Source: SAR202 cluster bacterium Casp-Chloro-G2 (GTDB taxonomy: Bacteria > Chloroflexota > Dehalococcoidia > Lucifugimonadales > UBA3495). From it: DNA of 50,598 nt. Each line of letters opens with the position of its first letter. The stretch's first letter is position 1. The notes below the pieces were generated by a model. It was given only the letters and a program-made list of their open reading frames with translations. It was not told the origin of the DNA and searched no databases. Positions 4,898-10,285 of the stretch are shown piece after piece. The translations under genes and the position numbers were made by a program. The stretch is taken from assembly GCA_002816575.1 (NCBI GenBank), contig MUCI01000056.1, positions 1-50,598 on the forward strand. The letters run 5' to 3'.

Positions 4898-5548
4898 CTA
4901 CTGGAATGTCACGATTGGCGACAGCGGGGCCAGGTCACCACCGTTGAATTGCCCTGGAGTGGTCTTGGTGAGGATATCCACCAGAGTGCTTGCGTTGAAG
5001 GCGGAGATGCTTTCTAAACCCAGGGGCATGGTGCCGGCAGCGCCCTCCCGCAGTTTGAACCTGACCACGGCCACGGGACCGCTTCCGGTCATGCCGTCCA
5101 CGTCGATTATCCCGGCCCAGAGGCGGCCCGGTCCCGGCGAACTGGAGTCGATGAGGGCCTTTCCGGCCAGCGTTCCCCGCTCCAATTGGGCGAATTCCAA
5201 CTTGGCCGGGTCAAATGTCAGTATGAACTCCAAACTACCCACATTGCTGGCCCGGGTGGCCAGGATGGGCACGGAGATCATCTTGGGGGTCGCGACCACC
5301 ACTGGATCAGGCGCCGCCGTGGCCGTGGGAGCTGCCCTTGGGGTTGCCGTTGGCTTGCCGACCGCCGCCGGTGTGGGGGTCGAAGACCCGCCCACCCGGT
5401 CCGGGCCGCCGTCGCTGCCGCCACCTCCGCCGAGAACTCCCACGGCGAACAGGAGGCCGATCAACAGCCCTACTCCGGCGATCGACCCAACCACCCATTT
5501 CCAACTGGAGGCTAATCCAATGAACGCAACTTCCAACAACCAGCGCAT
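4898..5548 (-). CDS. Membrane-anchored cohesin-domain protein
   Basis: In this 216-residue protein residues about 18-40 form one transmembrane helix (WVVGSIAGVGLLIGLLFAVG). A Gly-rich stretch and a TP/AP-rich linker (TPTPAAVGKPTATPRAAPT) follow. The C-terminal 120 residues look like a cohesin fold: ISVPILATRASNVGSLEF, FDPAKLEFAQLERGTLAG and VVRFKLREG. It should sit on the outer face of the membrane and present the cohesin outward. The ATG at 5548 has GGGGAG upstream. The gene lies 55 nt downstream of the large PPC/cohesin/dockerin gene in the same direction and shares its terminator, so this cohesin may be the anchor for the neighbour's dockerin. Cohesin assignment is by pattern and moderately sure. 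Confidence 0.8.
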   Translation of the reverse strand: MRWLLEVAFIGLASSWKWVVGSIAGVGLLIGLLFAVGVLGGGGGSDGGPDRVGGSSTPTPAAVGKPTATPRAAPTATAAPDPVVVATPKMISVPILATRASNVGSLEFILTFDPAKLEFAQLERGTLAGKALIDSSSPGPGRLWAGIIDVDGMTGSGPVAVVRFKLREGAAGTMPLGLESISAFNASTLVDILTKTTPGQFNGGDLAPLSPIVTFQ

Positions 5549-5603: not shown

Positions 5604-8480
5604 TCATAATGGGCGCGCCATGTTTAAGATTATCCGCGCATCTTCAACAGTAACTTTGCCGTCATCGTTGACGTCTAGCGATAGGTCTGGCGTCAATAGG
5701 TTGGACGCCATCTTCAGGGCCATCAGAGCGTCCATCGCGGTGATCAGGCTGTCCCCTCCGCCGTCGCCCTGTATCTTGGTGCCCACCTTGAAGTCGGCGC
5801 CAACCAACTCCACCGCCAACGGGCCGCTGGCAGAGTGGTTCACCAAGGCATCGGACAGTGTTATCGGGCTGACAGCCCCCTCGGAGCCAATGACCTGGAA
5901 TTGCACCACGGCGGCCGTCCCTCCAGGTCCGTCGCCCTGGGTTAGGGCAAAGCCGAACCTGACCTGTCCCCGGGTATCTGTGTCGTAGCTGAATGAGTTT
6001 GGATTCATCCTGGACCCACGTTCCACCGCGACCACCCTCAGAGAATCGGGGTCGTAATTCATGGTGAATCCCATGCTGGTGATTCCTTCGGCCTGGTTCA
6101 ACTCCACCGGCACCCGCACGATGCTGCCGGTGGGCGACACCCGAGATTTGAGGACCAAGGCTGTGCCGCTTGGGGTGACGACCTTGGGCTGAGGTTCCGT
6201 GGCGGGCGGCTCGGGAGTCGGTTTCGTGACCTTGGGAGCAACCGGCCTGGCATCGCTCTCACGGTTCACAGTTATGTGATAGGTCCCCACGGCTTTGGCC
6301 ACCCTGCCGGAGGCTGAGACGGCCAGGGTGTACCAACCGGTCGCCGGGGCCTTCCATTCCAGGGATTGGTCCAGCCCGAAGTTGGAGGTGCTGAACCCGG
6401 CGGCCTGGTTCTCCACCGAGAACCGCACGCCTTCAGCGGTGCCCAAGGTTACGTCTACGGTGTACTTAGTTCCCGCATCGGCAGGGAAACGGAAGTAGTC
6501 ATAGTCGTTGGCCGGGCTGATGGCCCCGGCGATGGCGTTGCCAAAGCCGATGCGCGTGCCCTCCTCGGGCAGATCACTGTGCCGGTCTTGCAGCGTGGTG
6601 TCGGGCGTGATCTTGAGCGAGTAGGTGCCGGTGGGTTCCGCCGCCTTCGGCGAGGCTGAAACCTTTACGAAGTAGGTCGCCGAGTTTGAGGCGGTCCAGC
6701 GGACGATATTACTCTCCCCAAAATTTCTGGCGCCGGCTTCCGGGATGCCGTCCAGGTTGGTTACTTCCAGTGAGACCGAAGTTGCTGATCCGTAGGTCAG
6801 GTCAAATTCGTATTCCACGCCCCGCTCGGCGGGGAAGGAGAAGTAATCCAGGTCGGATTTAGGACTGATAGCCCCTTGGTAGATGGTGCCGAAGCTGACC
6901 GGGGTGCCGCTTGCGGCTGTGTCCAGATGCCGGTCTTCCAGGCTGGTGTTCGCCGTAACCGTCAACGAATAGGTGCCGATGCCCTGGGATGCCTGCGGGG
7001 AATAAGACACCACCACATAGAATGTTCCCGTGCTAGCCGCGGTCCAACCCAAGGCGGTGCCCAACCCGTTGGTGCTGCTCAATGTGTCACCGGCGGCGTT
7101 CTCGATCGAGATGACAGCGCCGTTGGCGGTGATCAGGTCCATGCTCACCGAATAGTTGACTCCCCGTTCCGTTGGGAAGGAGAAATAGTCGCGGTCGGTC
7201 TCCGGGCTGATGGCGCCCTGATTGGCGCTGCCAAAGCTGATGGCCGAAGCCAGGGCCGGAATCTCGCCGTGATGGTCCTGCAGCGTGGTGTCGCTGCTCA
7301 GGTTCAGCGAGTAGGTGCCAATAACATTCGGGACCTGAGGCGAGGCCGAAACTACTGCCAGATAGCTGCCGCTGGCCGGCGCAAGCCACTCCAGGCTGGT
7401 CCCCACGCCACCGTTGGAGGCCAGGCTGATCTCGTCGGTGTTAAGGATGGTCAATTCGACGCCGTCTGCGCTGCCCAGCGACACGTCGAGCATATACTTC
7501 ACGCCGCGCAGGGCCGGGAACGAGAAGTAGTCCCGGTCGTCGGCGGGGCTGATGGACCCCTGGTGGGCATTGCCGAAGCTGATCACCGTTGCTCCGGCGA
7601 TGGTCTGGGAATGCTGGTCCATGAGGTTAGTTTCGGCGTTCAGCTTGATCGCGTAGGTGCCGTTGGAGTCCCGCACCCGGCTGGTGCCGGTAACCGAGAT
7701 GTAATAGGTATTGTCGCTGGGAGCGATCCAATCCAGGGTGTTGCCGATGCCGTCGCTGGTCTTTTCCAAGCCGTCGAAGGGAGACCGGATGGCAATCTCG
7801 ACGCCCTCTGAGGTGCCCAGATCAACCTCCACGTTGTACCTCACGCCGCGCCGTGCCTGAAACGAGAAGTAATCGTAGTCGTCGCCGCCGTCCACGGTGT
7901 TGGCCAGCTTGGGCTGGTTGCTCCAAGGGCTGATGGCTCCTTGGTAGATGTTGCCCGGCGATATCTGGGTGGCCCCGTTCCGGCCTTCGGAATGGCGGTC
8001 AATGAAACGCGTGTCCTCAAATCCGCTTAGTGTGTAATCACCGAGGTAGAAGGAGTCGTCGAAGTTGTTGATGGTGCCCGACACTTCTACGTAATAGGTG
8101 TCGGTGGTGCGGGCGGTCCAATTTACGGTCTTCCGGCCGCCTTCGATGCTCAAGTCCTGACCCGGAGACCCGCCGTTGCCTCGGGCTAGAGAATTAATGA
8201 TGGCGATATTGGCGGCCACCACCGTGGTCTCGTCCAAAACAAAGGTATATTGGACACCGCGCTGGGCCTGGAAGGAGAAATAGTCAACGTCGAAGAGGAT
8301 GTCAGATGGGTCGATTACCCCGGCGACGGCGCCAGCGCCGATCTTGATGCTGGTTGAAGTGAACCGGTAATCGCCGTGGTCGTCGTCGGCGTAGGCAGGG
8401 TATTGGCTGGAGAAGAAAGCCGCCACAATGATCGTTAGCAGCACCAGCGTCATCGTCAGCAGATGTGTTGATTTACGCAT
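5604..8480 (-). CDS. Secreted six-repeat PPC-domain protein with C-terminal cohesin and dockerin
   Basis: This 958-residue protein has a signal peptide (MRKSTHLLTM, hydrophobic core, AYA cleavage site before DDDHGD). Six PPC-like beta-sandwich modules follow, each about 115 residues, marked by DYFSF(P/Q)AxRGVxY, a GTYSL-type strand and DxxLQDRHS connectors. Next come a PT-rich linker, a cohesin-like domain (about 772-904, VPVELNQAEGITSMGFTMNYDP) and a type I dockerin (905-958). The dockerin has one degenerate calcium loop (GDGGGDSLITAMD) and one perfect loop (DVNDDGKVTVED). No catalytic domain is visible, so it is likely a structural, adhesive or scaffold protein. I chose ATG 8480 over the frame start at 8504 because it begins the signal peptide and has a GGAG-type site upstream. 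It forms an operon with the membrane cohesin gene. Confidence 0.88.
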   Translation of the reverse strand: MRKSTHLLTMTLVLLTIIVAAFFSSQYPAYADDDHGDYRFTSTSIKIGAGAVAGVIDPSDILFDVDYFSFQAQRGVQYTFVLDETTVVAANIAIINSLARGNGGSPGQDLSIEGGRKTVNWTARTTDTYYVEVSGTINNFDDSFYLGDYTLSGFEDTRFIDRHSEGRNGATQISPGNIYQGAISPWSNQPKLANTVDGGDDYDYFSFQARRGVRYNVEVDLGTSEGVEIAIRSPFDGLEKTSDGIGNTLDWIAPSDNTYYISVTGTSRVRDSNGTYAIKLNAETNLMDQHSQTIAGATVISFGNAHQGSISPADDRDYFSFPALRGVKYMLDVSLGSADGVELTILNTDEISLASNGGVGTSLEWLAPASGSYLAVVSASPQVPNVIGTYSLNLSSDTTLQDHHGEIPALASAISFGSANQGAISPETDRDYFSFPTERGVNYSVSMDLITANGAVISIENAAGDTLSSTNGLGTALGWTAASTGTFYVVVSYSPQASQGIGTYSLTVTANTSLEDRHLDTAASGTPVSFGTIYQGAISPKSDLDYFSFPAERGVEYEFDLTYGSATSVSLEVTNLDGIPEAGARNFGESNIVRWTASNSATYFVKVSASPKAAEPTGTYSLKITPDTTLQDRHSDLPEEGTRIGFGNAIAGAISPANDYDYFRFPADAGTKYTVDVTLGTAEGVRFSVENQAAGFSTSNFGLDQSLEWKAPATGWYTLAVSASGRVAKAVGTYHITVNRESDARPVAPKVTKPTPEPPATEPQPKVVTPSGTALVLKSRVSPTGSIVRVPVELNQAEGITSMGFTMNYDPDSLRVVAVERGSRMNPNSFSYDTDTRGQVRFGFALTQGDGPGGTAAVVQFQVIGSEGAVSPITLSDALVNHSASGPLAVELVGADFKVGTKIQGDGGGDSLITAMDALMALKMASNLLTPDLSLDVNDDGKVTVEDARIILNMARPL
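6270..8400 (-). repeat. Six tandem PPC modules
   Basis: The DYFSF-type motif recurs near 6490, 6840, 7190, 7520, 7865 and 8275, a period of about 330-350 nt (about 410 between the last two). The copies are diverged in DNA but clear in protein, so this is old domain duplication rather than fresh DNA repeat. Confidence 0.85.
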
Positions 8481-8636
8481 ACCCCTACTCCCTTCCTCCG
8501 CCACCTCGCGCTCACCACGGGGGCTGCTCCACGGTCATCTTTGGACACGCGGGACCGAATGAGCGGGCGTCCGCACACTCCCGCAGACGCGGTCAGGAGA
8601 GCAGACGTTCCGCTGTTAGCATTGAAATTTGGTTGC

Positions 8637-8764: not shown

Positions 8765-10285
8765 TCAGGGCGCGTAGATGTCCGTTTGGGGGTAAAAAGC
8801 GTACCAGCCGAACCAGTATGCCTCCCGGCTGGGCAGCCGGTCCAAGGACCGGGCGGCGCCGTCCAGGCTGACCAGAGCGTCGTCCTCAGCCCGCCATTCC
8901 ACGCCATCCTCGTCGGTCACAACCATCATCCGGCCCGGCCCGGTCCGGGCCGGAGTGAACACATGGTTACCCCGGCCGTAGGCCCTAACCCCGCCGCCGG
9001 ACCCAGGCGATAGGACGACCACGTTCTGGCCGCCCAATTCGTCGTTGAGCGCGGTTGGCGAGGCGAATACCGACAGTGGGTACGCCCTGGCTTCATCGCC
9101 GACAACGAGGCCAAAAACCGGTTCTTTGGTTTCCAACTCGGCGCTGCGCAGCGGGACCGGGAACATGGTCGTTGTCTGGTTGCGGTAGGCGAAGTAAGCG
9201 GAGTCGTTCTGGGACTCGGGGGAATAACTTTCTGCCGGATACCTGCCGGTTTCCGCGTTCAAGACGGTGGTGTCCGGGTGTTCCGCCACCCAGTCGGCCC
9301 AAAACGTGAGGGTCATGGGCAGCACCTCCAGTTCCAAGCCGCTGCCGACCAGCGGGCCAACCGCGGGCACGCCCCGAAATTGCTGCCACAGCGTCTCCGT
9401 CTTGCGGTCGTACATCAGTTTGTTGCTGCGGTAGAGGAAGCCGGAGGTGCCGAACTCCACCCTTTCGCCGTTGATCTCCGTGGAATACACGATTCCAGAG
9501 CCGCAGAGGGTTCAATAAGCCAGGGCGAAGGGCACGCCTCCCAGGATGTCGTTGGCCATCTCGTGACGGTTCAAGATGCGTAGTGGATAGGCCCGGTGCT
9601 CGCCGTTGATGGACACTCCGAAGACCCGGTCGCCCGGGAGCAGGTAATCGGCGTCTTCCGCAGAGACCACGGGTGGGTCGCTCAGGTCGGGGATGCCGTC
9701 CTTGGCCACACCTCCCCAAACGATCTCTTCCAGCCGGATATCCGATCTCACGCCGTCATAGATGAAGCCGCCCAGACCGGGGTCCACGATGGCGTATAAC
9801 CGGCCCTTCCATCCGGCGAACCCCGGCGGCGGCCGTACCTGAGGGTTGTTGCCCAGCCACTCGACCCACCACTGCCACTCATTCTGCTCTGGCGGGAAGA
9901 CCATCACGTCTTCCGGCGGCACGTTGTCTTTGAGCCGGGACAGGAAGGAGGTCATGTTGATGATGGCTTCATCGTCGTTCTGAAAGCGGAGGAACTCCAG
10001 CAGCACCGGGATGTAGGTCTGGTTCCCGGAATAAGCCATCTTGCGGGCGACCTTGGCCAGGGGCAGCTCCAGGGAGGCCAGCATCAACCCGGTAGGGTCG
10101 TCGGGCAGTCCGGTCAGGTCCACCTCTCCGGGCATCGGCTCGATGGGTATCACGGCCCCGGGCCCGGATGTGGCCGGGACGGGCGTGCCGCCTCCGCCCG
10201 GCGAACAGGCCGCCACCAAAAGCGCCGCAGCCGTCGCCGCCAGCCAGACTGGCCGCCGATGTTTTGGCTTATGAGACAACCGCAA
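8765..10285 (-). CDS. DUF3179 lipoprotein with in-frame UGA at the CxxC motif (candidate selenoprotein)
   Basis: This is one uninterrupted frame of 506 codons except for a single TGA (plus 9512-9514, codon 258). Upstream the frame reads DRVFGVSINGEHRAYPLRIL, then HEMANDILGGVPFALAY. The UGA comes next, then TLCGSGIVYSTEINGERVEF. DUF3179 proteins have Cys at this point (YCxLCG), so the motif is U/stop-T-L-C. No frameshift is needed, and the protein after the UGA is a perfect DUF3179 C-terminal half (FGTSGFLYRSNKLMYD, DEARAYPLSVF). The start is TTG 10285 after AGAGAGG. The N-terminus is a lipoprotein signal (AALLVAAC), so it should be tethered outside the membrane. DUF3179 has no established function that I know of. 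A SECIS-like hairpin follows the UGA. Alternatives are a nonsense pseudogene or a sequencing error. Confidence 0.85.
9476..9500 (-). promoter_or_regulatory. Candidate SECIS hairpin in the DUF3179 gene
   Basis: After the UGA on the minus strand, UGGAAU pairs perfectly with AUUCCA (6 bp) around a CGUGU loop. A 3-bp outer stem CUC/GAG and a 2-nt bulge lie below. The loop begins 20 nt after the UGA, the same distance as in the FrnE-like gene, and has G in its second position. This fits the bacterial SECIS geometry. Confidence 0.6.

Follow-up and report, generated by a model that had tools for sequence, protein, structure and literature searches.

A DUF3179 lipoprotein from a SAR202-type Chloroflexota genome with a probable selenocysteine in its UxxC motif and a predicted tandem Rieske-like fold

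Introduction

DUF3179 (pfam11376) is an established family of prokaryotic selenoproteins. It is tabulated as "DUF3179 domain-containing protein", with the motif UxxC/T, in two catalogues, whose tables list it without a function or a fold (PMC9312934, PMC13188914). PMC9312934 credits DUF3179 selenoproteins to Zhang & Gladyshev 2007, on an Olavius algarvensis symbiont, and PMC13188914 cites this paper too. In addition, public plasmid records label relatives "DUF3179 domain-containing (seleno)protein". In a partial literature search, no paper connecting selenoproteins with SAR202 or DUF3179 with Rieske proteins came up, nor any description of DUF3179 as an internally duplicated Rieske-like domain.

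Insertion of selenocysteine (Sec) at a bacterial UGA is directed by a hairpin, the SECIS, for which a bSECIS model has been published (PMC13188914). This model has a loop of 3–9 nt with a G within its first two positions and an upper stem of 4–16 bp. The distance from the UGA is 16–37 nt and the folding energy (MFE) is ≤ -7.5.

The gene described here lies in a stretch of 50,598 nucleotides from SAR202 cluster bacterium Casp-Chloro-G2, hereafter the window. The source is a metagenome-assembled genome (MAG; G000) of 1.9 Mb in 66 contigs, which is 75.6% complete. The initial annotation, made from the letters alone, had proposed a new selenoprotein family with Sec at the first Cys of a DUF3179 CxxC motif, adding that no report of DUF3179 selenoproteins was known. 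The position of the Sec is strongly supported by the results below. The novelty claim fails, because DUF3179 with UxxC/T is already present in the two published catalogues, and public annotation lists the family as well.

Results

The gene is on the minus strand and comprises the following features:

8765..10285, minus strand: DUF3179 lipoprotein gene of 506 codons, one of them an internal UGA taken as sense, and a TGA stop
10202..10285, minus strand: signal peptide with lipobox LVAAC, residues 1–28, assigned by eye from the translation
9512..9514, minus strand: in-frame TGA, U258, position 1 of U-T-L-C
9503..9505, minus strand: C261, second Cys of UxxC (Cys in 108/109 genes)

Translation of 8765–10285 gives a 506-residue frame with only one internal stop, the TGA at 9512–9514, and with no frameshift, just as had been described. 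The terminator of the gene, at 8765–8767, is also TGA. The putative start codon is a TTG at 10285, which has GAGAGG upstream and the lipobox LVAAC downstream. Around U258 the protein reads GGVPFALAY-U-TLCGSGIVYS. With the UGA taken as sense, its match to PF11376 spans the entire model (1–292 of 292; 253 bits against a gathering cut-off of 27; E 4e-75). With the TGA taken as Cys, 9230–9649 aligns with model positions 21–152, and 8768–9511, which lies 3' of the TGA, aligns with 66–292. Both the upstream and the downstream pieces are DUF3179, as first read. None of the NCBIfam models matches the lipoprotein.

The codon was then compared across a set of 60 genomes, made up of G000 and its relatives, 45 of which encode DUF3179. 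Many of the copies have exactly one TGA. In 109 genes the codon falls in one shared column, which is TGA in 69 and TGC/TGT in 40, so that the family does have Cys at exactly the UGA position, and the UGA/Cys alternation that the initial annotation proposed to look for is seen. The TGA genes form the motif groups UTLC (the window type), UPLC, UPIC and UIKC. The UTLC alignment, when used to scan public genomes, gave 80 loci, mostly Chloroflexota by title (Dehalococcoidia, SAR202) and from genomes that partly overlap the 60-genome set; the codons were 65 TGA and 17 Cys, with the Cys versions being CTLC, CVLC or CTMC. Three changes of the Sec/Cys label are needed on a tree of 107 domains, and the clade of the window gene is all Sec, including three genes from the same genus. 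An in-frame UGA that aligns with the Cys of homologues, between flanks conserved on both sides, is a criterion for bacterial selenoproteins, and it describes this column. U-T-L-C also has its Sec where the catalogued family has it, at position 1 of U-x-x-C/T.

The source sequence is a MAG assembled from reads, and an error in sequencing or assembly could in principle have turned a TGC/TGT into the TGA. However, the closest relatives in other genomes (L124 in G009, L123 in G006 and L146 in G007) share both the TGA and the hairpin described below, and the probability of such an error is negligible.

Other DUF3179 copies show further variation. In G045, a CVLC gene adjoins a UTLC Sec gene (the L111/L200 pair), and at L221 two Sec copies lie ~5 kb apart. 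Some copies from the same genus (G007:C48, G007:C53 and G003:C60) have an in-frame TAG and may be decaying or assembly errors. In L149 (G010:C14) the motif is UPLR, the second Cys is gone, the hairpin is weakened and the frame is split; this looks like a decaying Sec gene.

Selection was estimated separately on the two sides of the UGA. Against the closest relative (L124), dN/dS of the window gene is 0.14 before the UGA and 0.16 after it, and against L123 it is 0.19 and 0.20. Residues downstream of the UGA are invariant over 28 diverse copies. By these comparisons of coding sequence, purifying selection is as strong after the UGA as before it, without relaxation. The pattern that the initial annotation had named as evidence against Sec, with Cys in all relatives and relaxed selection past the UGA, is not what the family shows.

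Sec machinery is widespread in the set: selB is present in 52/60 genomes, selA above the cut-off in 51/60 and tRNA-Sec in 50/60. In the 75.6% complete G000, none of these three was found. Its selB matches are all below the cut-off, and the tRNA-Sec candidates examined overlap ordinary tRNAs (such as Ser, Leu, Gly, Tyr and Trp), the best being tRNA-Ser. Contig C7 of G000 starts ~1.2 kb beyond the position of selA in the relative G008, and selA is therefore probably in an assembly gap. Almost nothing was found in G000 of the 20 kb that surround selB in G008. The genome check suggested at the outset thus had a mixed outcome, since selD is present and itself has a Sec codon. This SelD gene (L259; G000:C22:23423-24343) reads ...HCAGUAAKLS... 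across its active site, and because the active-site codon is TGA, a second gene in G000 requires Sec. As selD is of the Sec type and a contig break lies beside selA, true loss of the machinery is unlikely. The missing genes were considered as a refutation of Sec decoding, and this was rejected given the incomplete MAG, the Sec-type selD and the contig break.

The missing machinery would also fit a nonsense mutation, with the gene being a recent pseudogene or encoding a truncated protein of 257 residues. Against this, the UGA column is shared by 69 genes of many genera, purifying selection is equal on both sides with invariant residues downstream, and SelD in the same genome likewise needs Sec read-through. 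A nonsense mutation is accordingly very improbable, and decoding as Sec is preferred.

Further support for Sec came from a hairpin just past the UGA:

9481..9497, minus strand: SECIS-like hairpin UGGAAU-CGUGU-AUUCCA, nt +15 to +31 past the UGA

In the DNA this is TGGAAT-CGTGT-ATTCCA, with an upper stem of 6 bp and a loop that begins after 20 nt from the UGA, and the region +4 to +42 has a folding energy of -8.7 kcal/mol. Recomputing the geometry gave the same perfect 6-bp stem, CGUGU loop and 20-nt distance as the initial annotation, which had also proposed a SECIS search. With a G at the second position of its 5-nt loop, a 6-bp stem, a 20-nt distance and -8.7 kcal/mol, the hairpin agrees with the bSECIS model in every respect. 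The energy limit of ≤ -7.5 is satisfied by 65/67 Sec genes and by 38/40 Cys genes, and because Cys genes satisfy it too, it was dropped as evidence. Compared with its own synonymous shuffles, the window gene alone gives a marginal p = 0.054, and the case for the hairpin therefore rests on the family of relatives.

Almost all TGA genes have their best hairpin starting at nt 14–16 past the UGA, with a G towards the 5' side of the loop; in a few UTLC exceptions, a different local hairpin scores slightly higher. TGA genes have 83% of cells paired in the dominant register (i + j = 46), as compared with ≤54% when the register is slid by ≤4 and with 39% in Cys genes. Pairing is maintained by compensatory changes: pair 15–31 is G-C, C-G or U-A, and pair 18–28 is A-U, C-G, G-U or U-A. 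The UPLC-N and UPIC genes use the neighbouring register 47, with six positions 100% paired. Synonymous shuffles gave p<0.05 for 38/67 TGA genes versus 1/40 Cys genes. A covarying hairpin in the Sec genes, with none at that place in the Cys genes, is a further selenoprotein criterion that describes this family. Codon use is constrained as well. In the UTLC clade, the five hairpin codons GGA ATC GTG TAT TCC are 93–100% invariant, and the top codon is used in 98.6% of cases under the hairpin versus 65% at other conserved residues.

The hairpin also bears on whether a suppressor or an altered code inserts a different amino acid, such as Cys or Trp, at the UGA. Insertion of Cys would yield a functional protein, given that Cys is the family's residue at this column. 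However, UGA serves as a stop here, since the DUF3179 gene itself ends in UGA (8765–8767), a hairpin with compensatory changes marks Sec insertion directed by a SECIS, and the Sec machinery is complete in the clade. Reading as another amino acid is thus hardly credible. Taken together, the conserved UGA column, the Sec/Cys alternation, the covarying hairpin, purifying selection, the machinery of the clade and the Sec-type SelD in the MAG argue that the UGA at 9512–9514 is decoded as Sec (probability roughly 0.93). The protein is then a member of the known DUF3179 selenoprotein family. During translation, the UGA would become Sec, with the hairpin that starts 15 nt past it acting as the bacterial SECIS that directs insertion via SelB, tRNA-Sec, SelA and SelD.

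The fold of the protein was approached by structure prediction, which together with profile comparison defines two domains:

9230..9649, minus strand: first Rieske-like domain, contains UxxC
8768..9155, minus strand: second, degenerate copy of the Rieske-like domain, without UxxC, limits approximate (hhalign and fold match)

AlphaFold2 models had a mean pLDDT of 90.6 for the mature chain and 90.5 for the first domain alone. Profile alignment of half 1 with half 2 (hhalign probability 99.8, E 1.6e-28) shows that DUF3179 is duplicated internally, and just the first copy contains UxxC. For the half 1 model, the leading Foldseek matches are Rieske proteins, at a probability of 1.00 but with E 0.016 at best and ~10% identity. 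In VIA, all 50 of the 50 matches listed for half 1 are Rieske proteins (Z 6.9–8.3) and half 2 (residues 369–464 of the whole-chain model) also matches Rieske proteins (Z up to 7.7), these being values for predicted models and near 8, a level where any single similarity could be due to chance. Foldseek with the whole chain gave no significant match, its Rieske matches having come from the single-domain model, and a sequence search for relatives of solved structure returned nothing with E below 0.4. A Rieske-like fold is nevertheless likely for the DUF3179 halves, because the match list is uniform and both halves agree.

The Rieske ligands C-x-H-x(15-17)-C-x-x-H are absent, as the domain alignment contains no conserved C-x-H or C-x-x-H. 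Its only invariant Cys are C46 and C49, which form the C/UxxC motif. Since the ligands are missing, DUF3179 is called Rieske-like in fold and not a Rieske protein. In VIA, model residues 15–117 align with 2qpz 2–96, and residues 27–114 with 4nb8 39–128; by these ranges U46 lies well before the cluster loops. A Rieske motif with exchanged ligands, N-x-H-x16-U-x-x-C, was considered and fits in spacing, but was rejected on this range-level placement of U46.

The product would be a membrane-anchored, extracytoplasmic lipoprotein, with a helical N-terminal part followed by two tandem Rieske-like beta domains. The Sec258/Cys261 pair of the first domain may be a selenol/thiol redox centre that forms a reversible selenenylsulfide and reduces or oxidises an extracytoplasmic substrate. 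Here, Sec in place of Cys would provide a better nucleophile or more resistance to over-oxidation. The U-T-L-C had been seen from the start as a redox-like pair; the Sec is strongly supported and the UxxC conserved, and the redox chemistry, for which the motif is the guide, is somewhat more likely than not.

Alternatively, Sec is real and UxxC binds a metal together with conserved His, Glu and Asp residues at -17, -16 and -12, with no selenenylsulfide cycling. Conservation of these positions is high (His -17 in 99/109 genes, Glu -16 in 103/109, Asp -12 in 108/109 and Cys +3 in 108/109), and the fold class carries metal clusters. However, His -17 is missing in 10/109 genes, none of the canonical Rieske ligands is present, and the aligned ranges place UxxC off the Rieske cluster loops. 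In addition, Sec in CxxC-type motifs is more commonly a redox nucleophile than a metal ligand. Metal binding is thus unlikely, if still a serious competitor to the redox role.

The genes downstream, at 5604–8504 and 4898–5548 on the minus strand, encode cohesin-domain proteins, one of which has a pre-peptidase C-terminal domain. L172, the closest relative, has the cohesin genes in the same order beside its DUF3179 gene. Synteny extends within the genus and partly to one further genome, not beyond. Assigning a function from the gene neighbours was dropped, as only near relatives share this neighbourhood.

Discussion

What is new is a clade-wide UTLC Sec subfamily in Dehalococcoidia/SAR202-type Chloroflexota, with a covarying SECIS set and a predicted tandem Rieske-like fold. 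Sec use in DUF3179 would be a stable, clade-wide trait of this large, mostly uncultured group, whose genomes encode several paralogous Sec subfamilies. Gene callers that apply the standard code split each such protein into two pieces. The predicted fold, in which two Rieske-like domains have lost their ligands and gained a UxxC, offers a structural lead to DUF3179 function. Tentatively, and with slightly less than even odds, DUF3179 proteins may be ex-Rieske, tandem-fold extracytoplasmic selenoenzymes that lost the Fe-S ligands and carry Sec/Cys-x-x-Cys elsewhere on the scaffold, with up to four Sec paralogues per Dehalococcoidia/SAR202-type Chloroflexota genome.

The closest described systems are the catalogued DUF3179 selenoproteins (UxxC/T; PMC9312934, PMC13188914), which have in common with the window protein the Pfam family, the U-x-x-C and a UGA in a prokaryotic gene. 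The window copy differs in belonging to the UTLC clade of Dehalococcoidia/SAR202-type Chloroflexota, and in having a lipoprotein signal and, at the N-terminus, an additional helical region. Cys-type DUF3179 proteins (CPLC, CTLC, CVLC), two of which are encoded in G000 itself (L015 and L016), share the domain and the conserved residues; unlike the window gene, they have a Cys codon at the UGA column and no hairpin where the SECIS would lie. Rieske-type ferredoxins, the Rieske domains of oxygenases and NirD (e.g. 2qpz, 3gce, 4nb8) resemble the predicted models of the DUF3179 halves, whereas DUF3179 has no cluster ligands and is duplicated in tandem, with UxxC in the first copy.
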